A stretch of 22,205 nt of DNA from a virus, in the IMG/VR virus record IMGVR_UViG_3300025655_000326, positions 1-22,205 of that record, one strand, 5' to 3'. Both the position numbers and the translations under genes were made by a program. Position 1 is the stretch's first letter; the number at the start of each line of letters is the position of its first letter. The notes below the pieces were generated by a model, which saw nothing but the letters and a program-made list of their open reading frames with translations, did not search any database and was not told the origin of the DNA. Of the stretch, positions 4,417-21,901 are shown in pieces.

Positions 4417-4446
4417 ATTATATCGGAATAATGCTATTGTTGTCAA
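4417..4446 (-). promoter_or_regulatory. Perfect-consensus sigma70-type promoter abutting tRNA-Asn
   Basis: Minus strand: TTGACA at 4441-4446, 18 bases, TATAAT at 4417-4422. The -35 box starts at the base directly after the CCA end of the tRNA-Asn gene. It would start transcription near 4410 for the small-gene operon beginning at 4376. Confidence 0.8.
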
Positions 4447-4521
4447 TGGCTGGTCTGGTAGGATTCGAACCTACAACCCATCGGTTAACAGCCGATTGCG
4501 CTGCCGTTGCGCCACAGACCA
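4447..4521 (-). tRNA. tRNA-Asn(GTT), CCA encoded
   Basis: Acceptor arms TGGTCTG and CAGACCA pair fully. The anticodon loop is CTGTTAA (anticodon GTT) and the T-loop has GGTTCGAATCC. The discriminator is G, followed by an encoded CCA at 4447-4449. It lies between the halogenase gene and the promoter at 4417-4446, probably cotranscribed with the halogenase. Confidence 0.95.
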
Positions 4522-4539: not shown

Positions 4540-6000
4540 CTATACAAAAATTTCTCTAATCATTTTTATGTGTGACTTATGAGTAATTGTTGCAATACTT
4601 TCTTCAAATCTTTTTTGATTTAACGATAGTTCATCTGCGGCAGACTTAACTATTGCAGACTGCATCATGAATTCCTTTCTAATTGATGATCTATCAAATA
4701 AATCTAATCCCTCTAAGACTAGCGTATAATTGCTTGCACTAAACAAAACATAGTCAGATTCCCCAAAGAAGTCCTCGCTGATTGGCAAATGGTGCTTCCA
4801 ACGCTTTAATCTTTTTGAAAGAGAATCTGGCAAAGGCATTTCTGCAACATCTCTCCAAAACTGTGTATCTCTTCTTGGAGTTACATAGTGTAAACAAATA
4901 AAGTCACGAATGTTTTCCATTATGTTAGCAAAACTTTGGTTATATGACTCAATAGATGTTTCATCATAGTTAGAAAGTCTATGCGAAAGCAAAAATGCTT
5001 GCTGAATTGTAGTTCCAATAGATGTTGCTTCAAGTGGCTCTACAAAAGCAGCCGATAATCCAACGGCAAAGCAATTCTTTATCCAACTATTCTCAAGATA
5101 TCCAGGATCAAAGGAAAAAGTTTTTCCTATTGTAATTTCTCTTCCAAGATAGTCTTCTACTTCCTTCTTTGCCTCATCTTCTCCAATATAGTTTTTGTCG
5201 TAGATATATCCATTTCCTACATGATCCCAAGTTGGAAGTCTAAACATCCATCCATAGTCCATGCCTCTTGCTAAAGTTGTTATTGAAAAGTTTTCTTCAT
5301 CCTCATGCTCTGTTTGAAAGGTTATGGCAGAATTCATCTTCATGTATTCTCCAAAAGACTTCCACTTAGCACCAACCCTACCAATCAACATCCTTTTGAA
5401 TCCTGTGGCATCTACATAAAAATCATACCTGTAATCTTTTTGCTTACCCTTTACACGACCTATCTGACCACCTTCTTTTAATATAACATCAGTGATCTCA
5501 TCATCATAAATATTAATACCCATCTGTTCTGCCACAACAGAAAGATAATCGTTCATCATGTGTGTGTTAAAGTGGAACTGATTTGTATTCCATTCCTCCC
5601 TTTGATTTACAAACCATCTATTTACCCTGTTTTCCCAGTTTAATTCAGCACAAAGTTTTCTGTGGTTGTTTGAAGAAATCTCTTTCCCATAAAGGTATGG
5701 ATATTGACCAGCAAGTTCATCATATTCCTTGCCAACGCTATGAATGTAGGATCTTTCTGGGTTCCAGTTCTCAAACTTGATGCCAATTTTAAGAGTGGCA
5801 TTGGTATTACGAATAAAGTGATACTGATCTAGACCAATAGTTTTTAGGAATGTAGCAAAATGCTCTGTAGAGCCCTCACCCACACCAACAATTCCAATAT
5901 CCTTTGATCTAACAACATCCACTTCAACATCTAGTTTGCGTTTTAGAATCAATGCTGTTACTAATCCAGCCGTTCCGCCGCCTACTACTAAAACCTTCAT
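4540..6000 (-). CDS. Flavin-dependent tryptophan-halogenase-like enzyme
   Basis: 486 residues, close to the usual 500-540 of PF04820 enzymes. The FAD-binding GGGTAG is at 7-12 and GVGEGST at 39-45. ATLKIGIKFENW (68-79) is the region of the catalytic lysine, probably K71 by motif position. YVDATGF at 195-201 is the second FAD motif. GWMFRLP at 250-256 stands where the family signature WxWxIP lies, with two aromatic changes. FVEPLEATSIG at 319-329 holds the glutamate-containing active-site stretch. Family members use FADH2, oxygen and halide to make HOX, which is passed to lysine and then to an aromatic substrate. The altered WxWxIP means substrate and even halogenation need testing. A marine viral halogenase, VirX1, is a known precedent. 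AGGA lies six bases before the ATG. Confidence 0.9.
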   Translation of the reverse strand: MKVLVVGGGTAGLVTALILKRKLDVEVDVVRSKDIGIVGVGEGSTEHFATFLKTIGLDQYHFIRNTNATLKIGIKFENWNPERSYIHSVGKEYDELAGQYPYLYGKEISSNNHRKLCAELNWENRVNRWFVNQREEWNTNQFHFNTHMMNDYLSVVAEQMGINIYDDEITDVILKEGGQIGRVKGKQKDYRYDFYVDATGFKRMLIGRVGAKWKSFGEYMKMNSAITFQTEHEDEENFSITTLARGMDYGWMFRLPTWDHVGNGYIYDKNYIGEDEAKKEVEDYLGREITIGKTFSFDPGYLENSWIKNCFAVGLSAAFVEPLEATSIGTTIQQAFLLSHRLSNYDETSIESYNQSFANIMENIRDFICLHYVTPRRDTQFWRDVAEMPLPDSLSKRLKRWKHHLPISEDFFGESDYVLFSASNYTLVLEGLDLFDRSSIRKEFMMQSAIVKSAADELSLNQKRFEESIATITHKSHIKMIREIFV

Positions 6001-6020
6001 AACTTTTCCTATCTACTATG

Positions 6021-6101
6021 TACCCAAGAAGGGATTCGAACCCTCACGCCTTGCGGCATTCGATTTTGAGTCGAACGTGTCTGCCATTCCACCACTCGGG
6101 C
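6021..6101 (-). tRNA. tRNA-Leu(CAA)
   Basis: Acceptor GCCCGAG pairs with CTTGGGT. The anticodon loop CTCAAAA gives anticodon CAA, reading UUG. A long variable arm marks a class II tRNA. The discriminator is A; no CCA is encoded. It is the last of three tRNAs in tandem, 20 bases before the halogenase start. Confidence 0.95.
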
Positions 6102-6177: not shown

Positions 6178-6187
6178 TTGATTTTCG

Positions 6188-6259
6188 AGCCCAATATCCG
6201 ATTTGAACGGATGACATCTTCATTACAAGTGAAGCACTCTACCACTGAGTTAATCGGGC
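6188..6259 (-). tRNA. tRNA-Thr(TGT)
   Basis: Acceptor GCCCGAT pairs with ATTGGGC. The anticodon stem is CTTCA/TGAAG with loop CTTGTAA, so the anticodon is TGT, reading ACA. The T-loop is CGTTCAAATCG. No CCA is encoded. It follows the DUF7455-like gene by 11 bases, and the three tRNAs are probably processed from that operon transcript. Confidence 0.95.
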
Positions 6260-6270
6260 GTGTGCAGAGG

Positions 6271-6519
6271 TTAGTCTGCGTTTGCTGCGCTAGATTCACG
6301 CTTTACTTCTAGTTTATGTCGTTCATCAATAATTTCAAATGCATAGGCACGGATTTTTTCTTCAGACTTACTGAAATGATGACCGCAAAAAAGCAAGTCG
6401 CCAGAGATACCATTTACCCAAACATAGGCTTGGGCATTGCAAGAATCACACCTATCGGTGGCATTAAGAGTATCGGTTTCAGTTGTCTCTGATACTTCTT
6501 CAACAATTGCTGTTTCCAT
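6271..6519 (-). CDS. DUF7455-like zinc-binding protein
   Basis: 82 residues. An acidic Thr/Glu-rich N-terminus is followed by TDRCDSCNAQAYVWV (22-36) and DLLFCGHHFS (41-50). The pattern CDxCxAQAYV...LLFCxHH is the DUF7455 family, common in Actinobacteria and their phages. Zinc is expected at C24, C27, C45 and H48. Function is unknown. Start: an ATG at 6549 lies only nine bases from the -10 box. I prefer 6519, which has GGAAGG seven bases upstream and gives a normal leader of about 33 bases. Confidence 0.85.
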   Translation of the reverse strand: METAIVEEVSETTETDTLNATDRCDSCNAQAYVWVNGISGDLLFCGHHFSKSEEKIRAYAFEIIDERHKLEVKRESSAANAD

Positions 6520-6558
6520 ATTTTTGCCTTCCGTTGTAGGATCTTGCATTATGTGTAT

Positions 6559-6588
6559 ATTATACTCTGCCTTGTGCTATTTTGTCAA
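6559..6588 (-). promoter_or_regulatory. Perfect-consensus sigma70-type promoter
   Basis: Minus strand: TTGACA at 6583-6588, 18 bases, TATAAT at 6559-6564. Predicted start near 6552. It would drive the DUF7455-like gene, tRNAs Thr, Gln and Leu, and probably the halogenase and tRNA-Asn. Confidence 0.8.
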
Positions 6589-6596
6589 ATCTATTG

Positions 6597-7301
6597 CTAC
6601 TCCTTCCATCCCCTACCCCTTAAAAAATCATATACGTTCTGAGTAGATTTATCTGTAAGGACAAACTGAGATTGCATTTCTTGAATCTTCATGCCATGTT
6701 GATGGGCAAAGAAGTTTACCGCATCTTTTATCTCACCGTGCTCAAAGTAATAGTAATCATCCCCACAAATAATCTTTGATCCTATTTTTCTTGCCCCGTT
6801 CAAATCATTAAGAACAGAGTTGTAATCATGCGAGGCATCTATATAGGTAATGTCTGGTGAAATGTCTGACTTATTTAAAAGAATGAAAGCCTGATTAGAA
6901 TCAATTGGGATAGCAATAACATGCTCTTCCAAACCATTGTTTCTTATTGTAGTAACAAATGTCTTATAGATGGATGGATATCCGTCTTCTAGAAAAATTC
7001 TTTCTCTCTGCCACTCACCACTTGGAAGTGCGTTCTCATAATGCTCTGTACTTCCAAGCCAAGTGTCTACGCATATAAGCATTCCATCGTGCTGCTTTGC
7101 CACTTCCCCCCAAGAAAGGGCAGACCTTCCCTCCCAACTTCCAATTTCAAGAATTATTTTTGGCTCAATTAACTCTGATAGAGAATAAAATAAATCAAAC
7201 TCACGTTTTACAACGTTTGGCCTATTGTATGTAGGACCGCTACCTAGTGTCGATAGTCCAAAATTAGAGAAGAACTTGTTTTTTAAATCAATTGATGACA
7301 T
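6597..7301 (-). CDS. Class I SAM-dependent methyltransferase (Methyltransf_24-like)
   Basis: 234 residues. Motif I is LEIGSWEGRSA (51-61), followed by the motif II acidic strand CVDTWLGS (77-84), ITYIDASHDY (151-160) and ICGDDY (178-183). These are the landmarks of the Methyltransf_24 / cephalosporin-hydroxylase-like branch of Rossmann methyltransferases, often found beside glycosyltransferases and sugar-modifying genes. The substrate cannot be told. AAAGGAG lies five bases before the ATG. The gene starts 21 bases after tRNA-Tyr and stops nine bases before the -35 box of the next promoter, so it probably closes the transcript begun at 8215-8243. Confidence 0.8.
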   Translation of the reverse strand: MSSIDLKNKFFSNFGLSTLGSGPTYNRPNVVKREFDLFYSLSELIEPKIILEIGSWEGRSALSWGEVAKQHDGMLICVDTWLGSTEHYENALPSGEWQRERIFLEDGYPSIYKTFVTTIRNNGLEEHVIAIPIDSNQAFILLNKSDISPDITYIDASHDYNSVLNDLNGARKIGSKIICGDDYYYFEHGEIKDAVNFFAHQHGMKIQEMQSQFVLTDKSTQNVYDFLRGRGWKE

Positions 7302-7439: not shown

Positions 7440-7997
7440 CTACCAAGCGCCGTTCTTTCCACGATCCTTCTTCTTCTTCTTCTTTTTCTTTGTTGGCTGT
7501 TGAGATCCGTAAGAACTCACTTCCTTTAAATTTGCAGATCTATTGAGCAAAAAACCTTGTGCCTGCTCCATAGTCAAACCGTAGTCCTTCATGATTATCT
7601 GAAGAAGAAGTTTGATTATCTCCTTATCTAACTGATTTCCTGTTTCAGATGAGGAAATAGTATTTAGATTATTGTTATTGTTGTTTATATTGGTAATATT
7701 TGGTCCAGTAGGAATGTTTATGTATGTATTGTATGCTGGAGGAACGTAATATGGATACTGATTCCATAGATAAACATACTTTGGTTCTTGTGGAGGGGTG
7801 TATATTGGCCTAGGACTTTCAGTTGGTGTTGGGCTAGGAGACGGTGTTGGCTCTACCGTTGGCTCTGGTGTTGGCTCTGGTGTTGGCTCTACAACCTCCT
7901 CAACTACTTCTTCTGTTTCGTTATCAACTGCGTAAGCAGACTGAGCAGGAATTATTAGCCCTGCTGCAACAATAATTGTTAGTATAGACTTCTTCAT
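7440..7997 (-). CDS. Secreted Pro-rich protein with poly-Lys tail
   Basis: 185 residues. Signal peptide: MKKSILTIIVAAGLIIPAQSA, with a likely cleavage after A-Y-A at 21-23. Then an acidic stretch, a Pro/Thr/Glu linker of PTPEP units (about 37-70), a Tyr/Pro-rich segment (YLWNQYPYYVPP), an Asn run and a helical segment (EIIKLLLQIIMKDYGL). The tail has eight consecutive lysines (170-177) and ends GKNGAW. The layout suggests a protein exported by the host and spanning or binding the cell wall, with the basic tail touching a polyanion such as teichoic acid, or DNA. It could serve in lysis, exclusion of other phages or virion decoration. No family recognised. GAAAGG lies seven bases before the start. 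Confidence 0.75.
   Translation of the reverse strand: MKKSILTIIVAAGLIIPAQSAYAVDNETEEVVEEVVEPTPEPTPEPTVEPTPSPSPTPTESPRPIYTPPQEPKYVYLWNQYPYYVPPAYNTYINIPTGPNITNINNNNNNLNTISSSETGNQLDKEIIKLLLQIIMKDYGLTMEQAQGFLLNRSANLKEVSSYGSQQPTKKKKKKKKDRGKNGAW
7843..7890 (-). repeat. Four tandem 12-bp units coding the Pro-Thr linker
   Basis: On the plus strand, three copies of ggtgttggctct and one variant accgttggctct stand head to tail. They encode four-residue units of the PTPE/PTVE type. Near-identity of the units suggests recent expansion by slippage, so linker length may vary between related phages. Confidence 0.8.
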
Positions 7998-8245: not shown

Positions 8246-11029
8246 CTAAGCCTGTGCTTCAGTCCAAGAAAGTCTGGTGAATACGCTGGTGGCGGTGGAG
8301 GAGATATTTGTGGCAATGATGGTTAGCGTATCTGGACCATCAGGATAGATCTCTTCATTTGAATATAATCCTCCGCCACCCAATATAGAATTACCCAAGT
8401 CTCTCAACTGTGATAAGTCAAGTGCTGCTGCTCTTCCTTGAACAAAGAAGCCTCCAACGGTCTCTCCACCATTAATGTTAGCGTTGACTGGAGAAAGGTC
8501 ACAGACCTGAGAAAGGCTAGAGTTTGCAACACCCACGACATTTCCTACGGCATCCGTCCATTGTCTTTGTACTGTTGGTACTCCATTAAGAATTGCACGC
8601 ACAAGAATATATGCGGTAGCGCTAGAGGCAACAAGCCCCAATTCTCTAACTACCAACTGCATTCTATTAACCAACTCTCTCTGACCAAAGAATGCAGAAA
8701 TGCTATTGTCTACAGATGGAGCCACTCGGATGGAAAGAAGGGCTCTTGTTTGTCCTGCGCTAAGAGTTACGGCGTTGGTCTGTCCATAGGTGAAGATCAG
8801 GGACTTGTCATCATCGAATCTTCCATCCATGATTACTGAAGTACCCCAATGGCTTACGGAAGGACCAAAGGTGGGCCAAGCGTTCTCCACAGTAATGGGA
8901 TTTGACTCCAAGTACTGAAAAATTTGTGCTGCGACAGAGCCCATGGGAGCAATATTGACTAATGGGTCGGCAGCAGTTACTGCTTGGCTAAGTACAATTT
9001 CATTCTCAGTCCCCTCTTCTGCATTTCCTGGAACAATTGATGAAATAAAAGTTCCATCAGGAACTGCGGCAGCAATAACCCTTTGACCAACCTGAAGACC
9101 AGTAAGGCTTGCAAGATAAGCCCTATTGGTATTTGCAGCAATAATTAACTGAACATCTCGCCTTCCTGCCTGCGCTCTGACAAGACCCCTAAAACTATTT
9201 TCTGACTTGCTTGAATAGTTGATGTATTCGTTTGTCGTTGAGTTTCTTACAAGAATAGTTCCAGAATCAGCAAATCCATCCGTAGTTTGTACATAGATCT
9301 CATCGTCAAGAGTTCCAATTCCTTGTGTAGCAAAAGTATATTTTGGATCTGTAGAAGACTCATATCGTGCAGGCACGTTACCAGTTCTCATATAGGCTTG
9401 GTCATTAACGTTGTTGTTAACAATTTTGTTGCAATACATTACTTGACCATCTGGTCCACGCAATCCAAATCTAATATATCCAGCACCATACCAAGTATAG
9501 TCAATGTAAAACATCTGCATTTTGGAAAGGTCTAGGTCATATCCTGATGGCCCATTGCCATCCATAGTATCAATGTTCCACTCATCCTGAGGAACTCTAA
9601 GATCAATAGTTTTGGTAATTACCGCGTACTGAGCATTCTCCCCTCTGTATGCTGGAGTAATTGTCAAACTTTGGTCACTGGTCAAAGATACAACGCGATA
9701 TGACTGACCACGAATTACAATTCTATCTCCAGGAATTAACTGCTTGGAAAAAATTGTTGGAAACGCTGGATCTGTTTGAGTAACTGTCTCTGATCCCTTG
9801 TTTATAGAAATTTTACCAGCAATCTGATATGTAGATGACCTACGAACAGTCCAAAGTCTCTTTCCATCAAACTCAAAGAACATCCCGTTTTGATCATCAA
9901 ACATTCCAAGCCTGTTGGCAGAACCATACCATTCTAAAACAGCCATGCTATAGTTTCCTGATGCTGGAGACTTTGCTGGCTCAAGGTAGGTCTCATACTC
10001 AAAAGTATTGTATCCAGTAATAGAAGAAATAACAAAGTCACCATTGTATGGTGGCTCATTTGCGCCAAAGACCCTTACAATAGCCCCAGGTTGCAAGTTG
10101 TGCTGCTCTTTTGTTTGAACAGTGATTGTGGTTCCGTTTGCTCTAATCTGATCAATTTGTAGGTTTGGCTTAAGAACAGATCCAGATGACATCTGAATAG
10201 ACTTACCTGACTGATATCGGAAGTAACGACGAGTTTGACGAACGGCAGTCTCAAAGTTAGCGTTACCGTTAGATGTGAAGATTACCCCACCGTCTAGCGG
10301 TCTGTGAAGGAACTGTCCCTGTGGACGCACATATATGCGAGCGTTTGTGGTATTAAGAGTTCCTGTTGGATCAGAAAGTACATAGAAGTCAAAGGTCGTA
10401 GCGTTTTGTACGGTTGCAACAATATGTGCGCCGACTGGAGCATTGGTTCCATCTGTTGTCACTCCGCTTACTGCAATTTCGTTACCAATGGAAAGACCGT
10501 GTGGAACTGTAGTGACTACTGTAACTCTGTCACCATCATAGGACATTGCAGGAGCGCCACCAATAGATGAGTTAATATAAAGATTTCCTTGATATACGGC
10601 AGTCTTGTAATCATCAAAGATGTTTGTTACGGATGTGGTGTTAAGAACACGACCCGTATAGGTAAAGTTATTTGTTCCTCCGCCAGAATCAACAATGAAG
10701 TTTCCATTGGCGATGTTTAGGAATGTATCTTGTACCGTAATTGGTGTTCCATTGGGTGGACCTACCCCAGAAGATAGGGTGATGGTTACCGTTCTGCTGA
10801 ACTGAGGCATTGACATCTCAGAGATGTTGGCAATGGGGGCAGGGGATTGGTAGGCAAATGGCCTGTTATTAATTAAAGTTAAGTTTTCCCACTTAGTCGT
10901 CTGGGTTCCATATTCAAAGTCGGTGTCGATAAGTGATTGCGGAGTGGTAACACGCAACTTATCTGTGGCATCGACAAACTTGTCATCAAACTCAATCATT
11001 TCTTTAAAATTAGATAAGTACTGTGTCAT
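8246..11029 (-). CDS. Large virion structural protein with FCCH-like repeats
   Basis: 927 residues, beta-rich and low in cysteine, as usual for tail or neck proteins. Two modules share one pattern: VPHGLSIGNEIAVSGV (about 175-190) and QHNLQPGAIVRVFG (about 309-322), each followed by a strand ending near FxFY/FEYE. This is the HxLxxGxxVxVxG repeat seen in phage particle proteins, often annotated as an FCCH-like domain. Between them TRRYFRYQSGKSIQMSSG (266-283) matches a segment I recall from structural proteins of environmental tailed phages. The C-terminal third is Ala/Val/Ser-rich. It starts one base after the fibre gene's stop. Role in neck, baseplate or adhesion cannot be separated by sequence alone. 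Confidence 0.8.
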   Translation of the reverse strand: MTQYLSNFKEMIEFDDKFVDATDKLRVTTPQSLIDTDFEYGTQTTKWENLTLINNRPFAYQSPAPIANISEMSMPQFSRTVTITLSSGVGPPNGTPITVQDTFLNIANGNFIVDSGGGTNNFTYTGRVLNTTSVTNIFDDYKTAVYQGNLYINSSIGGAPAMSYDGDRVTVVTTVPHGLSIGNEIAVSGVTTDGTNAPVGAHIVATVQNATTFDFYVLSDPTGTLNTTNARIYVRPQGQFLHRPLDGGVIFTSNGNANFETAVRQTRRYFRYQSGKSIQMSSGSVLKPNLQIDQIRANGTTITVQTKEQHNLQPGAIVRVFGANEPPYNGDFVISSITGYNTFEYETYLEPAKSPASGNYSMAVLEWYGSANRLGMFDDQNGMFFEFDGKRLWTVRRSSTYQIAGKISINKGSETVTQTDPAFPTIFSKQLIPGDRIVIRGQSYRVVSLTSDQSLTITPAYRGENAQYAVITKTIDLRVPQDEWNIDTMDGNGPSGYDLDLSKMQMFYIDYTWYGAGYIRFGLRGPDGQVMYCNKIVNNNVNDQAYMRTGNVPARYESSTDPKYTFATQGIGTLDDEIYVQTTDGFADSGTILVRNSTTNEYINYSSKSENSFRGLVRAQAGRRDVQLIIAANTNRAYLASLTGLQVGQRVIAAAVPDGTFISSIVPGNAEEGTENEIVLSQAVTAADPLVNIAPMGSVAAQIFQYLESNPITVENAWPTFGPSVSHWGTSVIMDGRFDDDKSLIFTYGQTNAVTLSAGQTRALLSIRVAPSVDNSISAFFGQRELVNRMQLVVRELGLVASSATAYILVRAILNGVPTVQRQWTDAVGNVVGVANSSLSQVCDLSPVNANINGGETVGGFFVQGRAAALDLSQLRDLGNSILGGGGLYSNEEIYPDGPDTLTIIATNISSTATSVFTRLSWTEAQA

Positions 11030-12345: not shown

Positions 12346-12383
12346 AGAACCACCTACAAATTATAACGTCTGTAGGTGGTTCT
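12346..12383 (-). repeat. Perfect 13-bp inverted repeat around a -10 box (operator-like)
   Basis: Plus strand arms AGAACCACCTACA (12346-12358) and TGTAGGTGGTTCT (12371-12383) are exact reverse complements separated by 12 bases. The loop contains the TATAAT of the minus-strand promoter, and the right arm fills most of the -35/-10 spacer. Arms of this length and position fit a repressor or activator operator. As RNA it would form a strong hairpin in read-through transcripts only, because the predicted start lies within the left arm. Confidence 0.8.
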
Positions 12384-12388
12384 GTCAA
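12360..12388 (-). promoter_or_regulatory. Perfect-consensus promoter inside an inverted repeat
   Basis: Minus strand: TTGACA at 12383-12388, 17 bases, TATAAT at 12360-12365. Predicted start near 12353, with a leader of about 30 bases to the ATG at 12321. Confidence 0.78.
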
Positions 12389-14005: not shown

Positions 14006-14446
14006 TCAGTCCTTAAGGGATGATCGCAACTGCCAAGCCCACTTCTTATGCTCAGCATCACGCTCAGCCAAGAAATTAGCAATACCCTGCTCATTAGCGG
14101 AGTTGGCTAATGCAAATGCGCGGTTAACGCAGACAATAATCTGGTCAGTAGCAAGCAGAAGGTCCATCAACATTGAGTGACAGTCTGTGCTGATCTCTGT
14201 CTCCCTGACGGAAGACATTTCTAGGAATCTGCTCATCTTAAATGGAGCATATGCCTTCTGTGCCCTAATGTATTCTGCTAGGGGATCTGTGGCAGAATAT
14301 ACATCATCAGCAATTTCTCCAAAGAGATCATGGAACTGGACGAAATGAATTCCTTCTACATTCCAGTGATAGCCCTTTGCCTTGAAGTATAGCGAGTAGG
14401 AGTCTGCAAGAACCTCCTTTAGCGCATTAACAAGTTCTTCGTTCAT
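14006..14446 (-). CDS. dps: Dps-like ferritin (DNA protection during starvation)
   Basis: 146 residues, a little shorter than bacterial Dps. KGYHWNVEGIHFVQFHDLFG (24-43) and the following SATDPLAEYI (51-60) carry all four intersubunit ferroxidase ligands with family spacing: H27, H39, D54 and E58. It should form a 12-mer that oxidises Fe(II) with hydrogen peroxide and stores iron. The Lys-rich N-terminal tail of E. coli Dps is missing, so DNA binding is uncertain. Phage copies may protect phage or host DNA from oxidative damage. It starts without a ribosome site, six bases after a TGA-TATACT box (leaderless prediction), and heads a three-gene operon. Confidence 0.9.
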   Translation of the reverse strand: MNEELVNALKEVLADSYSLYFKAKGYHWNVEGIHFVQFHDLFGEIADDVYSATDPLAEYIRAQKAYAPFKMSRFLEMSSVRETEISTDCHSMLMDLLLATDQIIVCVNRAFALANSANEQGIANFLAERDAEHKKWAWQLRSSLKD

Positions 14447-14498: not shown

Positions 14499-15242
14499 AT
14501 GGCGACTTTTGGATCTCTGTGGGTTGGTGGACCACTAAAGAAATTGCAGGAAACCTGTCTTGCATCTTTTGTTTATTACGGACATGATATCACCCTTTGG
14601 GTTTATGATCTAGACATGCAAGTTCCTAGAGGAGTAAAGAAAAGGGACGCAAGAGAACTAATTTCCGAATCAAATATATTTTTAGTTAAGAATACCTATG
14701 CAGCATTCTCAGATGTTTTCAGATATAGAATGGTTGATGCTTTTGATATGATTTGGGTAGATGCAGATACATTATGCTGTTCAGAGGACTGGGATTTCTT
14801 TGATGATGACCTTCTTTTTTCAAGGGAATATGGTGGTCCAGAAAATTACTTTGTTGGTGGGGTAATGAAACTTCCAAACAACTCTCTTGTTAGCAAGTAT
14901 ATTGTAAAAAAGTCACAAAACTTTAATTCAGGAAACGTTAAGTGGGCTGAGGTTGGACCCCTGTTGTTATCTAGCGTTGTGCAAAAGTTTGGTTATGAAA
15001 GTTATGCTCAAGATCCCAAGGTTCTTTGCATGATAACCATGCAAGAAGCACCTAAGTTTTGGAATGAAAGATATAGAAACGATATCATAAAAAGAACTAG
15101 CAACAAAGAAACCAAAAGCGCTTCTCTGTATAATGGAATGCTTACCGTTTTTGGCAATGGAAGAATAGACACAAACGTTTTGCCCAGAAACTCAGCCATG
15201 GAATACTTTTATAATAAATATGTAGTTGAAGGAAGCAAATGA
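14499..15242 (+). CDS. Glycosyltransferase with DxD motif (GT32/capsular-type)
   Basis: 247 residues. The N-terminal Rossmann-like half (SLWVGGPL, SFVYYGHDITLWVYD) leads to SDVFRYRMVDAFDMIWVDAD (71-90). This is the region in which DxD glycosyltransferases bind nucleotide-sugar and Mn2+, with D88 and D90 the likely ligands. SxxxRYxMxD before the DxD is the GT32-like Gly_transf_sug arrangement. It probably transfers a sugar to a host surface or virion glycan; donor and acceptor are unknown. It is the first of only two plus-strand genes in the window, almost leaderless, and overlaps the next gene as ATGA. Confidence 0.78.
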   Translation: MATFGSLWVGGPLKKLQETCLASFVYYGHDITLWVYDLDMQVPRGVKKRDARELISESNIFLVKNTYAAFSDVFRYRMVDAFDMIWVDADTLCCSEDWDFFDDDLLFSREYGGPENYFVGGVMKLPNNSLVSKYIVKKSQNFNSGNVKWAEVGPLLLSSVVQKFGYESYAQDPKVLCMITMQEAPKFWNERYRNDIIKRTSNKETKSASLYNGMLTVFGNGRIDTNVLPRNSAMEYFYNKYVVEGSK

Positions 15243-15850
15243 ACATTGATTTAAGAGAAATACCCACCAAGTATATTAATCTAAATAGACATCCAGAGCG
15301 TAATGAAAAGATGGGCCAATTAATAGAAGCCGTTAAGTTTAATGATATTGAAAGAGTTCAGGGGGTAGACATGCCAAATGACTCAATGGCTGGTTGCGCT
15401 TCTTCTCACTTGCAGATTTTTTCCTCTATGTCTGGACCTACAACAATTCTTGAGGACGACTGTGAACTAAGGAACAAAAATTATTTAATCGATATTCCTG
15501 ACAACACAGATGCGCTTTATCTTGGACTAAGTTCTTGGGCTCTAAATGTTGAGTCAGGTATGCAGTGGATTCATTCTTTTGTCCCTGTTGATGGATACCC
15601 TCACTTAACCAAAATAAACAACATGCTTGCAACACACGCAATTCTTTATGTTAGTGATGAATATAAAGAAATGTGTATTCGTGCAGCAAAGTACTCTGCT
15701 AGAAATAGCGTACATGTTGATGTTAGTTTTGCTAGGTTCCAAAGATTTTATAATGTCTATGCCCTGAATGATCCAATATTCTATCAATCAAGCAATACTA
15801 AAGCAACTGACATTACGTTTGATCAAATTAAAAACCGTAAACATAAGTAA
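15239..15850 (+). CDS. GT25-like glycosyltransferase
   Basis: 203 residues. KYINLNRHPERNEKM (11-25) is the GT25 opening (INLxRRxDRxxxM). GCASSH at 52-57 and TTILEDDCEL at 68-77 are the family's GCxxSH and ILEDD motifs; the acidic pair binds the metal and nucleotide-sugar. GT25 enzymes include lipooligosaccharide galactosyltransferases. It is shorter than typical members (about 250). GAAGGAAG precedes the ATG, which overlaps the preceding TGA. It meets the minus-strand GT32 gene head-on with only three bases between the stops. Confidence 0.8.
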   Translation: MNIDLREIPTKYINLNRHPERNEKMGQLIEAVKFNDIERVQGVDMPNDSMAGCASSHLQIFSSMSGPTTILEDDCELRNKNYLIDIPDNTDALYLGLSSWALNVESGMQWIHSFVPVDGYPHLTKINNMLATHAILYVSDEYKEMCIRAAKYSARNSVHVDVSFARFQRFYNVYALNDPIFYQSSNTKATDITFDQIKNRKHK

Positions 15851-15853
15851 TGT

Positions 15854-16480
15854 TCATCCTGTCCACGAACCACTCCAGTGATGTATAGCAAAAGTGTTTT
15901 GATTAACGGAAAAATCTTCCGTGGCCCTATCCTTTTCCGTCCAATGATATGGATAGAACGATTCTGGCTGCAAAAGCACTACCTCTGGATTGCCTCTCCA
16001 TAATTTAGTTATTACTGATGGGCTAAACATTTTTAGATGACCCCCATAAGTAATTTTTCCATCACTTGATTCAGTTTCTATTGCACCAATGCAATATAGA
16101 ATTAGGTCAAGTACCTGTGGATTTTTAGGTGGAGATCCAATTACCGCTGAACCAATAGTGTCGTTGCTTTCCCATGCAGCAAATGGATATCTATATTCTA
16201 AGAAGTGATCAAAAGGTCTTATAACCTCTATATCTGTATCTATATAGATCCCTCCCGTATGATAAAGAATTTCCAATCTCATTAGGTCTGATTTAAATGC
16301 AAATGCTGGGGACATACTTAAGAATCTTCCGATTAACGGATATTCCTCCAAGTTTGAATCGTCATGGGTGATATGTCCCCAGCCTATGTTGTGCATTTTG
16401 GAAGTCTCCCAAAAATATTCGGCAAAAGGATCTTTTGGACCCATGTGAACTCTATGAATAATCTTGGGAATGGTTTCCAT
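15854..16480 (-). CDS. GT32-like glycosyltransferase (DxD sugar-binding family)
   Basis: 208 residues. IPKIIHRVHMG (4-14) is the classic opening. AFKSDLMRLEILYHTGGIYI (61-80) followed by DTD (81-83) is the Gly_transf_sug / OCH1 motif with D81 and D83 as metal ligands. The end HHWSGSW matches the C-terminal HxxxxSW element of the family. It transfers a hexose or similar residue from a nucleotide-sugar. No clear ribosome site at normal distance, so it may depend on coupling to the small gene three bases upstream. Confidence 0.87.
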   Translation of the reverse strand: METIPKIIHRVHMGPKDPFAEYFWETSKMHNIGWGHITHDDSNLEEYPLIGRFLSMSPAFAFKSDLMRLEILYHTGGIYIDTDIEVIRPFDHFLEYRYPFAAWESNDTIGSAVIGSPPKNPQVLDLILYCIGAIETESSDGKITYGGHLKMFSPSVITKLWRGNPEVVLLQPESFYPYHWTEKDRATEDFSVNQNTFAIHHWSGSWTG

Positions 16481-16482
16481 AA

Positions 16483-16653
16483 TTAACGATACTTCCTCTT
16501 TAGTCTTGGCTTCAGTCCAGCCTGAACTGCTCTGGCATAAGCAATGCCATATGCCTTTTCAGATCCCTCTCCAGCCTTGCCTCCTGTTCCTCTACGAACT
16601 GCTGTTGAAGCAGACTCAAGGTTTCGCAGGATCTTCTCATTTTCATCTGACAT
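16483..16653 (-). CDS. Small basic hypothetical protein (56 aa)
   Basis: 56-residue frame beginning MSDENEKILRNL. It has a Gly-rich middle (RRGTGGKAGEGSEKAYGI) and a basic C-terminus (GLKPRLKRKYR), with predicted helices at both ends. The start overlaps the upstream glycosyltransferase stop as TAATG and AAAGGAT lies six bases before it. It sits between two glycosyltransferase genes and is surely cotranscribed. No family recognised. Confidence 0.7.
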   Translation of the reverse strand: MSDENEKILRNLESASTAVRRGTGGKAGEGSEKAYGIAYARAVQAGLKPRLKRKYR

Positions 16654-17699
16654 TATTTATCCTTTCGGTGACATTCACATTTACATAAAAGTTCTTCACA
16701 TTCTTTGTGAAGACCCTCAACACAATACATTGTTTTTACTGGTGTGTCAAGGAAGTCTATTTCCTCCACAAGAACACTCATGTTTTCTTTATAATTAATC
16801 TTTCCAGACATATAGAATTCATGGAAGTCTATTCCAATTAAATCCTGATACTCAAAGTATCTGTCATAGTCTGATATTCCATAGATACCCTTCTCTTTTC
16901 CAAGAAGAACATCTTTTTGTATCCTGTTTGATTCTGCCTCAATATTCATCCACTTGTTTACAGACTTAAGATTCCATACTTTTGGATCTTCTGATCTGGT
17001 ATAAAAGTGCCAAAGAAGCATTTCATTTGGAGCGTATATTTCCCATCCCCTTGTGTAAGCGCGAATGGCAAAACATATTTCTTCCCCCATAAACGATATT
17101 CTTTCGTCATATGGTATATCTTCTACTATTCTTCCTGGAGCAAATATATATCCAGCAAGAACTGTTAGGGACTTATGAGGCTTTGTCTTGTCTTCAATCT
17201 TTTGCCTTAGACCCCCCCAAACCCCTTTGTTGGTATTAATTGGTTTTGTCCAAGAGGGTTCGTCCCAAACATGTGGATCTTTTTTGGGAAAATAATCTTT
17301 ACCATCTGATCCAACAAAGTATGGTGCGGGAAACTGACTGAGAATTACCTTTTCTGTTTTCGAATCTTTTTGTGCCTCAGAAAGCATTCTCTTTAGTTTT
17401 GTATCCCAACCTTTAGCAAATCTTGTATGCGAGTCTATCTGAAAGAAATAATCTTCTCCATCGTATAACTCCATGGCAAGTTTGCGAGCATACCCTGCAC
17501 CTTTTGCATCTTTTGCATGAATCTCTACAAATTTAACTTGATCTCCAAGCCAGTCTACCCTTTTATGCTTATTGTTTAGATCCTGAGAAATAATTCCAAC
17601 AATCAACTCTTCTTTACTGTCTGCATTTTCATATAAACTCTTGACAGTCTTAGGAAGTTGGCTATCACGATAGGAGGCAATAGATACAAATATACTCAT
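16653..17699 (-). CDS. GlcNAc-type glycosyltransferase (PF11397-like)
   Basis: 348 residues. IFVSIASYRDSQLPKTVKSL (3-22) is the diagnostic start of the GlcNAc family. KGAGYARKLAMELYDGEDYF (66-85) and FQIDSHTRFAKGWD (86-99) hold the metal-binding DxH (D89, H91). Homologues such as the slime-mould Skp1 enzyme attach GlcNAc to hydroxyproline; bacterial and viral members have other, mostly unknown, targets. The C-terminus after about residue 320 is an added Cys-rich tail (CVEGLHKECEELLCKCECH), which looks like a fused zinc knob and is unusual. It overlaps genes on both sides (ATGA and TAATG). Confidence 0.87.
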   Translation of the reverse strand: MSIFVSIASYRDSQLPKTVKSLYENADSKEELIVGIISQDLNNKHKRVDWLGDQVKFVEIHAKDAKGAGYARKLAMELYDGEDYFFQIDSHTRFAKGWDTKLKRMLSEAQKDSKTEKVILSQFPAPYFVGSDGKDYFPKKDPHVWDEPSWTKPINTNKGVWGGLRQKIEDKTKPHKSLTVLAGYIFAPGRIVEDIPYDERISFMGEEICFAIRAYTRGWEIYAPNEMLLWHFYTRSEDPKVWNLKSVNKWMNIEAESNRIQKDVLLGKEKGIYGISDYDRYFEYQDLIGIDFHEFYMSGKINYKENMSVLVEEIDFLDTPVKTMYCVEGLHKECEELLCKCECHRKDK

Positions 17700-17950
17700 G
17701 ATATCTGTTGCGTTCCAGGAGAATCATATATTGGATCTAGAGTAGACTCAATGCCAGCGTTTTTTAACATTCTTTTAATAACCTCAAAATACGCAGCCAT
17801 CTTTAATCTTTCTGATTCACTTATGTGTGACCACTCGCTTTCATAAAATCTGATTCCTAAGTAATTGCCATAGTCAACAATGTCTACGGTTATTTCTACT
17901 GGTATCTTTACTGAGCGAATAGCCATACTTATTTCAGGAGTATAAATCAT
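17696..17950 (-). CDS. Hypothetical protein
   Basis: 84 residues from MIYTPEISMAIRS. Alternating strands (VKIPVEITVDIVDYG, YLGIRFYES) are followed by a helix (SERLKMAAYFEVIKRMLKNAG) and a flexible end. The longer start at 17989 is rejected: the ATG at 17950 overlaps the WhiB stop as ATGA and has GGAGG four bases upstream. It bridges the WhiB and glycosyltransferase genes. No family recognised. Confidence 0.65.
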   Translation of the reverse strand: MIYTPEISMAIRSVKIPVEITVDIVDYGNYLGIRFYESEWSHISESERLKMAAYFEVIKRMLKNAGIESTLDPIYDSPGTQQIS

Positions 17951-18228
17951 TCTACCTCCATGGTCAGTGCTTCCCAAGTGGTAAACCAATCGTCTTTTGT
18001 TTTATGAGAATTAAACTCACGATCAATCTTGCCATCCTTTAAGTAAACACCGCCCCAGACGCCCCATTCTTTTTGAGAAACTCCCCAAGCAAAACACTCT
18101 TGGTTGATTGGACATCTTTGGCATATGTGATCTACAGATTTAGAGATGTGTTGATCTTCTTCATATTTGTCAAAGAATAGATTGGTATCCATTCCCAAAC
18201 ATTCAGCCTTATCCCTCCACCCGTGCAT
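17947..18228 (-). CDS. whiB: WhiB-family iron-sulfur transcription regulator
   Basis: 93 residues from MHGWRDKAEC. All four cluster cysteines are present with family spacing: C10, C36, C39 (CxxC) and C45 (C-x5-C). The GVWGG turn (56-60) and a basic C-terminal stretch follow. WhiB proteins bind a 4Fe-4S cluster and the housekeeping sigma factor to tune transcription, and are confined to Actinobacteria and their phages, which is the best host clue here. A TTG four codons upstream is possible, but GGGAG sits before the ATG at 18228. Phage WhiB proteins are known to act on host whiB genes and in superinfection exclusion; that role is possible here. Confidence 0.92.
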   Translation of the reverse strand: MHGWRDKAECLGMDTNLFFDKYEEDQHISKSVDHICQRCPINQECFAWGVSQKEWGVWGGVYLKDGKIDREFNSHKTKDDWFTTWEALTMEVE

Positions 18229-18439
18229 GACCGCTCCCAATATTGTTAGGAAGATGCCAGCCCTGCTCTGTTAGGGGAAAGATCTTCTTTTTCATCCATT
18301 TACCGTCACGGAGAACGCCTGATGAAGAATACTGTGCGTTGTGTCCCTGACTGTAACGGACAACATCCCATCCATCCCACGACAAATCCTGTCGTGAAGA
18401 AACGATGTGTTCCATCTTATCTAGATTAGTTACTAGCAT
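18209..18439 (-). CDS. Hypothetical Trp-rich protein
   Basis: 76 residues. DLSWDGWDVVRYSQG and KIFPLTEQGWHLP give a repeated Trp pattern, with GVLRDGKWMKKK between. This could be a small beta-barrel or nucleic-acid-binding fold, but no named family is recognised. GGAGAG lies seven bases before the ATG. It overlaps the deaminase gene by 14 bases and the WhiB gene by 20, so it is part of the same operon. Confidence 0.68.
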   Translation of the reverse strand: MLVTNLDKMEHIVSSRQDLSWDGWDVVRYSQGHNAQYSSSGVLRDGKWMKKKIFPLTEQGWHLPNNIGSGHARVEG

Positions 18440-19166: not shown

Positions 19167-19514
19167 TTAATCCCTCTCGTTGTCTTCTTCCAAATCGTCA
19201 AGAATTCCCAATAACTTATTGACATCTTTTTTAGGCAGTGCCATAACATCTACTGGTCTTGCTGTTTCAAATGCTGGCTCTTTTGTTGTTTCTGATTCAT
19301 AAAGCACATTTTGATATACCCAATATGCTTTATCTTCATATACGGCAACCTTTATTCTTGCTTGACCAGATTCAATTTCATCTTGTATAAAATCTCCGTC
19401 TTCTTCATAATCATGATTTTCGTAATCCTCTGTATCTCTTACCATTATAAACAATAACGTGCCAACTGTCAATACCCACGGAATTATTGCTATTAAATAC
19501 AGCAAATTAATCAC
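19167..19514 (-). CDS. Membrane-anchored acidic protein
   Basis: 115 residues. One transmembrane helix covers about 3-24 (LLYLIAIIPWVLTVGTLLFI). A strongly acidic linker (DTEDYENHDYEEDGDF) and a soluble region with strands (ARIKVAVYEDKAYWVYQ) and a C-terminal helix follow. A signal anchor is more likely than a cleaved signal, since there is no A-x-A site. The annotated GTG is very close to the upstream AAGGA; a TTG a few codons in would be better spaced. It could be a membrane partner in lysis or exclusion. No family recognised. Confidence 0.65.
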   Translation of the reverse strand: MINLLYLIAIIPWVLTVGTLLFIMVRDTEDYENHDYEEDGDFIQDEIESGQARIKVAVYEDKAYWVYQNVLYESETTKEPAFETARPVDVMALPKKDVNKLLGILDDLEEDNERD

Positions 19515-20113: not shown

Positions 20114-21901
20114 TCAGAGCATTCCGAATGAGTCAAGATAGTCAGCAACATCGTCTGGCATCTCTTTTGGTTCCCACCTAACGTTGTCTTCCTCTTCTTG
20201 ACGGTTTTTCTTATTAGCAGACTTCCAATCATGGATTTCAATCTCCTGATTAGCATTACGAGGAGTATGTGCTATTGCGTTGTATACCGCTCCTGTAACG
20301 GCGTCAGACAAGTCCTTAGAGCCTTTACGGGGGTGGTCTACCTTCTTGTCGGATACAATACGCAACTCGCTCATTTCCTGCAACAAGATGTCTAGGTGTG
20401 GCATAAGGACACGATCCTCGTAATAAAGCATTGCAAGGTCTTCGTAATGCTTTTTACCTACAGAAAGAGTGTCTGTTTTAATTCCAACAGTTTGAAGTTC
20501 TTGCTGAATATCAAACGATTGCCAGCGGTCAAAGGTTACTAGACCTAACCTGAATCCCTGCCTTCTAAAGTTTACAATCCAATCTTTTACTTCTGAAAGG
20601 TTTACTGGACCTTCTTTTCTTGGTTCCCACCAAACAACAGCATCGACAATTACAAATGGATGAACCTGAGTATAGTCGTTGAAGGTTCTTACCTGAACCC
20701 ATTTATCCACATGAGCAATAGCAATAGCGCATTTGTCATGTTTTTGGGCGAGGTCTGCGTGCAAGAAATATCTAATATCCTCTTCTGGTTTCCACCTCTC
20801 CTCAATTCTCTTAAAAGAGTCAATTGGGTTTGGCAATACCATTGCACGCTCTAGCGCTTCCTTGTTCTTAAAGAATGAATCGGAGGAGAATGATGGCATA
20901 CAAGCAAATCTTTGCATGGCGTCTGCATAGTCTGTCATAAAAGCAATCTTAAAATCTGTTATATTTCTTGTTGGATTTGCCTCCCAAGTTGGCCTTTTAA
21001 TAGCAAACACTCCAGGATACTTATAAGACAAGATGTGATCCTCAACCCATTCAATTGAAAATTGATTATCTGGATCGTTTTCTGGTAGGTCTGGGTTAAT
21101 CGTAAAGGTATAACTCTTTAACTCAACATCTTTTTCAGCAACTACTTCGTCATACCTCTTAGAAATAAAGTCTCCTGGATAGCGAGGAAATGAAAGAAGA
21201 ACCACCTTGCCAAAATCTGGGAATCGTGAATCTACGGAAGCACGGAATGCCTTATAAATAGCATCACCTGTTTTGGCATTTTCGTTTCCTGATGCAGAGT
21301 CTTGTGCAAACCCAGAAATCTCATCAAGGATGGCTAGAATAAGGTTAAGTCCCTCATGACTCTCCCTTTCTGAGTGACCTGAGTAAACAGTAACTGCCTT
21401 ATCAAATTCAATGCTGTCTGCCTTTGCTTCAAACCTTCCAGCAAACCATGGAGACCTGTTTATTTTTCCCTTAAGTCCTTTAAAAAAAACATTTCTAGCC
21501 TGCTGTGCGTTAATTGCAACGTTAATGATATCAATTGCGTCTCCAGGAGGCTTACCAAAGTATCGCGCTGGATCTTTTAAACACAGTAGTTTATAAACTA
21601 AATAGGCACAGCCAATAGTGGAAGTGTGGTCTTTCCCTGAACCCTTTCCTAATTGAAGTAAAACTTCTGCCTTAGTATATTTTTTAAAATGTTCATGGCC
21701 CTTTTTCTCTCCCATGAATCTAATAAGATCTTCTTCTCTATAAATTTGACTCATTGCTTCAACCAAATCTCTTTGAATCTGAGAAAGTTCTGGCTGATCT
21801 AGATATTGTGGATCATGAAGGAATGTATCTAGGTCTACTGGATCTTCTTCAAAAGGAGAGTCATCAAGTGCTCCAAGAAAATCATCAAAATTAAGACTCA
21901 T
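20114..21901 (-). CDS. terL: Terminase large subunit
   Basis: 595 residues. ATPase domain: Walker A GKGSGKDH at 85-92 (K90) and Walker B LILAILDE at 187-194 with catalytic E194. RNase H-like nuclease domain: D383 in YFLHADLAQ, D458 in VTFDRWQS and the KDLSDA acidic pair (D530, D533). The protein couples ATP hydrolysis to DNA translocation into the prohead and cuts the genome at packaging. Length fits large actinophage terminases. It overlaps the upstream gene by 11 bases, which supports that gene as the small subunit. Which packaging mode (pac or cos) cannot be told. Confidence 0.95.
   Translation of the reverse strand: MSLNFDDFLGALDDSPFEEDPVDLDTFLHDPQYLDQPELSQIQRDLVEAMSQIYREEDLIRFMGEKKGHEHFKKYTKAEVLLQLGKGSGKDHTSTIGCAYLVYKLLCLKDPARYFGKPPGDAIDIINVAINAQQARNVFFKGLKGKINRSPWFAGRFEAKADSIEFDKAVTVYSGHSERESHEGLNLILAILDEISGFAQDSASGNENAKTGDAIYKAFRASVDSRFPDFGKVVLLSFPRYPGDFISKRYDEVVAEKDVELKSYTFTINPDLPENDPDNQFSIEWVEDHILSYKYPGVFAIKRPTWEANPTRNITDFKIAFMTDYADAMQRFACMPSFSSDSFFKNKEALERAMVLPNPIDSFKRIEERWKPEEDIRYFLHADLAQKHDKCAIAIAHVDKWVQVRTFNDYTQVHPFVIVDAVVWWEPRKEGPVNLSEVKDWIVNFRRQGFRLGLVTFDRWQSFDIQQELQTVGIKTDTLSVGKKHYEDLAMLYYEDRVLMPHLDILLQEMSELRIVSDKKVDHPRKGSKDLSDAVTGAVYNAIAHTPRNANQEIEIHDWKSANKKNRQEEEDNVRWEPKEMPDDVADYLDSFGML

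Follow-up and report, generated by a model that had tools for sequence, protein, structure and literature searches.

The window analysed here is the whole of the 22,205-bp IMG/VR fragment IMGVR_UViG_3300025655_000326 (positions 1 to 22,205). ARAGORN identified eight tRNAs in it, all of which were also found by Rfam, and seven of them lie at 4.4-8.2 kb. Both programs bear out the placement, given in an initial annotation of this DNA, of a halogenase-type gene between tRNA-Leu and tRNA-Asn. The features of the window are as follows.

4417-4446, minus strand: perfect TTGACA-N18-TATAAT promoter directly after tRNA-Asn, the putative start of the next transcript
4447-4521, minus strand: tRNA-Asn(gtt) (ARAGORN and Rfam), downstream edge of the slot, 18 nt after the halogenase stop codon
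4540-6000, minus strand: flavin-dependent halogenase-family gene (486 aa, ATG start, no internal stop)
6020-6101, minus strand: tRNA-Leu(caa) (ARAGORN and Rfam), upstream edge of the slot, 19 nt before the halogenase start codon
6105-6177, minus strand: tRNA-Gln(ctg) (ARAGORN), on the same putative transcript as the halogenase
6187-6259, minus strand: tRNA-Thr(tgt) (ARAGORN), on the same putative transcript as the halogenase
6271-6549, minus strand: conserved 92-aa ORF, 57-73% identical in relatives lacking the halogenase, first gene after the promoter
6559-6588, minus strand: perfect TTGACA-N18-TATAAT promoter, the putative start of the halogenase-bearing transcript
6597-7301, minus strand: class I methyltransferase (PF13578), possible further cargo
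8246-11029, minus strand: cyanophage-type virion structural (fibre-like) protein (phrog_5838), 43% identical over its full length to Synechococcus phages
17947-18240, minus strand: WhiB (PF02467, E 2.9e-14), a host marker for actinobacteria
20114-21901, minus strand: terminase large subunit, 54% identical to Streptomyces phages and up to 90% to IMG/VR contigs

WhiB is a marker used for freshwater actinophages (PMC6802176). Because the window encodes WhiB together with a terminase 54% identical to those of Streptomyces phages, we regard it as a fragment of a freshwater-type actinophage, that is, a virus of water-dwelling actinobacteria, in agreement with the earlier assignment as a probable actinophage.

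The product of the halogenase gene matches positions 1-446 of the 458-position PF04820 profile (E 6.5e-92; 309 bits against a curated cut-off of 21) as well as phrog_2928, 'tryptophan halogenase' (E 1.3e-102). It carries the FAD-binding GxGxxG motif (GGGTAG, residues 7-12), the lysine region (NATLKIGIKFENW) with K71, and the EPLEAT stretch (FVEPLEATS, 319-327) with E324, all as initially described; the FX[DE]PX[EFL] motif is likewise present, as FVEPLE (319-324). In PrnA, the catalytic Lys and Glu are K79 and E346, to which K71 and E324 correspond by alignment; alignment A2 shows no variation at these two positions or at the FAD site. Among the non-redundant viral representatives, the lysine is found in 157 of 158 and the glutamate in 154 of 158. 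The length and the E-values exclude a chance ORF, and a degraded gene was ruled out in view of the complete reading frame and the retained catalytic residues. The GC content of the gene, 36.1%, is below that of most of its neighbours, and there is a plausible AGGA ribosome site.

An AlphaFold model built from 29 aligned sequences (mean pLDDT 89.2, pTM 0.90) aligned over residues 1-483 with flavin-dependent halogenases, and the top full-length matches were all halogenases: SttH (Z 43.5), PyrH (43.1), Xcc4156 (42.8), PrnA (40.9), the peptide halogenase MibH (38.3) and VirX1 (36.6), after which Z drops to 26 for the next fold group, CndH and Bmp2. The comparison with PrnA and VirX1 that had been suggested as a check thus gave full-length matches to both; the structural support consists in whole-fold agreement, the Lys-Glu pair being placed by sequence alignment. 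PrnA, PyrH, SttH and Xcc4156/BrvH share the full-length fold (Z 40-43) and the catalytic pair with the window enzyme, but they are only 22-28% identical to it, have the WxWxIP of bacterial enzymes and in most cases carry Phe where Trp is stacked. By homology, then, the ORF is an intact-looking member of the flavin-dependent halogenase family, and it is on this basis that we call it a halogenase. The enzyme is probably catalytically competent, and we consider it quite likely that its chemistry is that of a halogenase, the family placing chlorine, bromine or iodine on aromatic rings.

At the position of WxWxIP, the window enzyme reads GWMFRLP (250-256; W251-M-F253-R-L255-P256), which departs from the strict motif, a diagnostic that is not required for membership of the flavin-dependent halogenases. 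The substitution noticed in the initial annotation is real, but it is no peculiarity of this protein. Phe replaces the second Trp in 54 of 158 viral and in none of 80 bacterial representatives, the latter being the nearest 80 and not all bacteria, which disposes of GWMFRLP as a unique oddity. A FastTree phylogeny, also proposed at the outset, placed the window halogenase in a clade (SH-like support 97) of 43 sequences, all of them viral and all with Phe; just 6 changes of the Trp/Phe state suffice for the whole tree.

The tunnel motif FxxPxxSxG, which, like a charged variant of it, has been reported for active enzymes and does not define the family, is altered as well: FVEPLEATS has Ala for Ser and Ser for Gly, changes also seen in many viral and bacterial relatives. 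The Trp sandwich of PrnA (H101/F103) is retained in H87, whereas its Phe is replaced by V89. This stacking position holds Ile, Val or Leu in 93 of 158 viral representatives, whereas the 80 bacterial ones have Phe (73) or Ile (7). Segment 88-140, which falls outside the alignment, lacks some 20 residues relative to AbeH. Because the stacking Phe is replaced by V89, we do not class the enzyme as a Trp halogenase. The changed motif and pocket, together with the retained catalytic pair, suggest that the substrate site has been remodelled, which argues against a free-tryptophan halogenase without naming a substrate; a target other than free Trp seems likely.

Several phage enzymes invite comparison. 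VirX1 of cyanophage Syn10 (PDB 6qgm), which has been characterised as a viral iodinating halogenase, shares the PF04820 fold, GxGxxG and the catalytic Lys and Glu, and is likewise phage-borne, but it is only 21% identical to the window enzyme and has NGWVWNIP and EPLESTG in place of YGWMFRLP and EPLEATS. Its gene adjoins another halogenase gene downstream of large 'hypothetical' genes that look fibre-like. The PrnA-like proteins of cyanomyoviruses (P-SSM2, S-H38; phrog_2928) are 38-42% identical, belong to the same length class and have EPLEATSIG; they differ in their intact WxWxIP and cyanobacterial hosts, and the S-H38 gene differs further in the weak 2OG-oxygenase matches of both flanking genes. 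Actinomycetia phage DSL-LC01 (OQ999401) is, like the window, a freshwater actinophage with WhiB, a glycosyltransferase and a phrog_5838-type fibre. Its halogenase, however, is 23.5% identical, carries GWVSKIP, and has EPLD, so that the catalytic Glu is Asp; it lies beside collagen-like fibre genes, whereas that of the window lies in a tRNA array.

The tRNA-Leu/tRNA-Asn slot was compared in IMG/VR relatives with terminases 66-90% identical to that of the window. PF04820 was found in none of 37 terminase-relative contigs, and the relatives lacking the halogenase are syntenic with the window. In L386, the interval between the two tRNAs is about 500 bp and encodes a 130-aa secreted-looking protein. 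The slot of L382 is filled by a block of four genes, for glycosyltransferases and an FkbM-type methyltransferase, and that of L381 by short fibre-like genes (functions of the slot genes in these three contigs were read by eye). The window halogenase is a lineage-specific, exchangeable cargo of this slot, and the initial idea of a cargo gene is thereby upheld.

Six further contigs of the same phage group carry halogenases. The shorter contigs L217 (terminase 90%) and L248 have VirX1-type enzymes, 23-26% identical to that of the window, upstream of the terminase, the L217 enzyme (23%) sitting in another slot. L145-L147 and L156, assigned to the group by their terminases (65-66%), have window-type halogenases (50% identical, WxFxIP), but these occupy a second slot, after a RuvC-like gene and before the terminase, outside the tRNA slot. 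Because different halogenases and different slots occur within one phage group, halogenases must have been gained more than once, and this repeated gain is, in our reading of the sequences, the strongest sign that halogenases matter to these phages. Nor does the window provide the first actinophage example: besides these six contigs, DSL-LC01 is already annotated with a tryptophan halogenase. A recent joint transfer of the halogenase and the phrog_5838 fibre from cyanophages was considered and is not supported (identities 25-42% and 43%, respectively). Among related actinophages, the fibre has a strong match only in DSL-LC01, and only 4 of 50 fibre-relative contigs carry a halogenase. The methyltransferase at 6597-7301 had no match as a linked partner in 36 actinophage records, in a search run without a positive control.

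Four perfect TTGACA-N17/18-TATAAT sites occur in the window (4417-4446, 6559-6588, 12360-12388 and 19444-19472), against 0.08 expected, and all are on the minus (main coding) strand; several relatives have sites matching at 11 or 12 of 12 positions at equivalent places. We infer that the 92-aa ORF, tRNA-Thr, tRNA-Gln, tRNA-Leu, the halogenase and tRNA-Asn are co-transcribed. Because a similar site (12388) precedes fibre genes, the promoter type cannot separate early from late roles.

Viral halogenases had been called rare, a view that the databases contradict: phage halogenases were found in 70 INPHARED records, and at least 582 IMG/VR stretches match. Inventories of cyanomyovirus genes have for many years included tryptophan halogenases, to which a role in antibiotic protection has speculatively been ascribed (PMC2984593). 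Across 104 non-redundant viral halogenase loci, 2OG-oxygenase-type genes are concentrated near the halogenase: there are 5.62 of them per 10 kb at distances of up to 1.5 kb but 0.13 at 8-10 kb, and 74 of the loci have such a gene within 5 kb (search profiles were built from clusters c0, c2, c5 and c3, of which c0 matches a 2OG family in Pfam, c3 corresponds to DUF6445, and c2 and c5 were judged by eye). No 2OG oxygenase was found in the window itself. Two to five halogenases occur in 26 of the 104 loci; in L002-L008 and L140-L163, 2-5 divergent paralogues lie in tandem or close together among 2OG oxygenases and DUF6445 proteins. Fibre-like ORFs, called by composition, make up 20-43% of the long ORFs around halogenases, compared with 11% in terminase loci; this enrichment is at the module level only, and a sharp gradient within 10 kb was sought and is absent. 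In S-SRM01, the halogenase has a tail-fibre block on one side and an adhesin tip gene on the other; the order in S-SZBM1 is structural genes, halogenase, 2OG oxygenases, and in DSL-LC01 collagen-like genes, halogenase, glycosyltransferase. About 30 (redundant) T4-like contigs have halogenase relatives between the sliding clamp and the clamp loader, far from fibres. In many T4-like contigs (L009-L040; e.g., L024:9319-13651), the gene lies exactly between gp45 and gp44, followed by gp62 and RegA, and is an accessory enzyme inside the replication operon. Given prior work, the co-occurrence of halogenases and 2OG oxygenases is not new; what we contribute are statistics on distance, the recognition of WxFxIP as marking a phage-only clade, a comparison of slots among actinophages and the evidence of repeated gain.

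Our preferred hypothesis, held with moderate confidence, is that the window gene encodes a probably active flavin-dependent halogenase, an exchangeable cargo of the tRNA slot, that would modify an aromatic group of some bulky target, perhaps part of the virion or a surface. The gene would be transcribed together with the tRNAs from a housekeeping-type promoter. FADH2 would be supplied by a flavin reductase of the host, because PF01613 reductases were absent from 36 phage records while being found in 13 of 14 control genomes. Flavin, O2 and halide would yield HOX, which would travel to K71/E324 and there halogenate an electron-rich aromatic group. This group would most likely belong to a bulky virion or surface component rather than to free tryptophan, as suggested by the two changes in the pocket (Trp to Phe, Phe to Val) and by the relatives' gene company, namely 2OG oxygenases, fibre modules and the glycosyltransferase/methyltransferase alternatives in the slot. 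A target on the virion or a surface is itself tentative, and we would place it somewhat below an even chance. The T4-like halogenases between clamp and clamp loader imply that a single virion role does not fit all, and a literature search found no phage halogenase with a virion target. More speculatively, and to our minds doubtfully, a phage-owned WxFxIP branch, acting with 2OG oxygenases, could modify the phages' own fibres or an encountered surface, the window being its actinophage outpost; if so, halogenated and hydroxylated virion proteins would be a widespread means of varying attachment.

A serious rival follows a proposal made for clusters of jumbo cyanophages in which a halogenase, 2OG oxygenases, carbamoyltransferases and HAD phosphatases occur together (PMC7824862): the enzyme would take part in the synthesis or decoration of a capsular glycan or a small secondary metabolite from which the infected cell profits. 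A carbamoyltransferase (PF16861) and a HAD hydrolase adjoin the halogenase in marine relatives, and sugar-decorating genes fill the tRNA slot in relatives of the window; the window fragment, however, has no biosynthetic set, and clusters of the L183-L191 type run into a gp10-like baseplate-fibre connector, which is also compatible with a virion target. We regard this explanation as possible but rather unlikely. Halogenation of the host's free tryptophan or indole, as PrnA and PyrH do with tryptophan, would accord with a fold nearest to that of Trp 5- and 6-halogenases and with the retained pocket His (H87), but V89, a position at which viral and bacterial enzymes largely differ, and the shortened segment 88-140 make it quite improbable.

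Alternatively, the enzyme might be a flavin monooxygenase (hydroxylase) that has lost halogenation. WxWxIP has been proposed to block monooxygenation, yet some active halogenases have a variant of it or lack it altogether (PMC8407142). Although F253 and weak partial NCBIfam matches to QhpG and LodB would allow this interpretation, K71 and E324 are kept across the clade, as is W251, the first Trp, and we consider it unlikely. That the gene is a passenger without function in this phage, as its single lineage-specific copy and low GC content might hint, is very improbable in view of the complete ORF with its ribosome site and catalytic residues, and of the recurrent independent acquisition in the group.

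Should the target be a virion protein, this would mean a new kind of phage protein modification; a metabolite as target would mean a new phage-made compound. Halogenases are in demand for selective C-H chemistry, and the usual route to them is via antibiotic clusters; the present survey shows them to be frequent in phages, where they have an active-site variant confined to phages, were acquired repeatedly within one actinophage group and lie in close association with 2OG oxygenases.

Several neighbouring genes deserve mention. Two related families without a Pfam name (hhalign 97%; L138:7883-8635 and 9288-9986, L051:16493-17281, L218:3480-4217) occur close to halogenases, at no more than 1.5 kb in 31 of 38 cases, and one comes immediately after VirX1; a model resembles dUTPases (Z 8.9, weak), and one of the families fills the RuvC-terminase slot in halogenase-less actinophages. 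The 'DNA endonuclease V' genes flanking the S-H38 halogenase (L047:13335-13967, 16377-16868) look misannotated, as they match the 2OG-Fe(II) oxygenase family PF13640, weakly and under the curated cut-off. In DSL-LC01, the 'ALK tyrosine kinase receptor' (L046:1876-10437) has phrog_5838 virion-protein matches and is a misannotated fibre. MAG contigs labelled Maricaulis, Gammaproteobacteria, Actinomycetota and Verrucomicrobia (L057, L058, L059 and L068) resemble phage DNA and are probable binning errors, given the fibre- and virion-type genes beside their halogenase and 2OG oxygenase. In the window itself, a 185-aa protein (7440-7997), for which no Pfam match was found, appears to have a signal peptide, contains Pro-rich repeats as well as a stretch rich in Tyr and Trp (YVYLWNQYPYYVPPAYNTY), and is an aromatic-rich candidate target near the halogenase. 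The window also carries a Dps/ferritin-like protein (PF00210) at 14006-14446 and four glycosyltransferase-like genes at 14499-17699; two of these four (247 and 203 aa) are on the plus strand, opposite to all other genes of the window, and L228 contains homologues of both.
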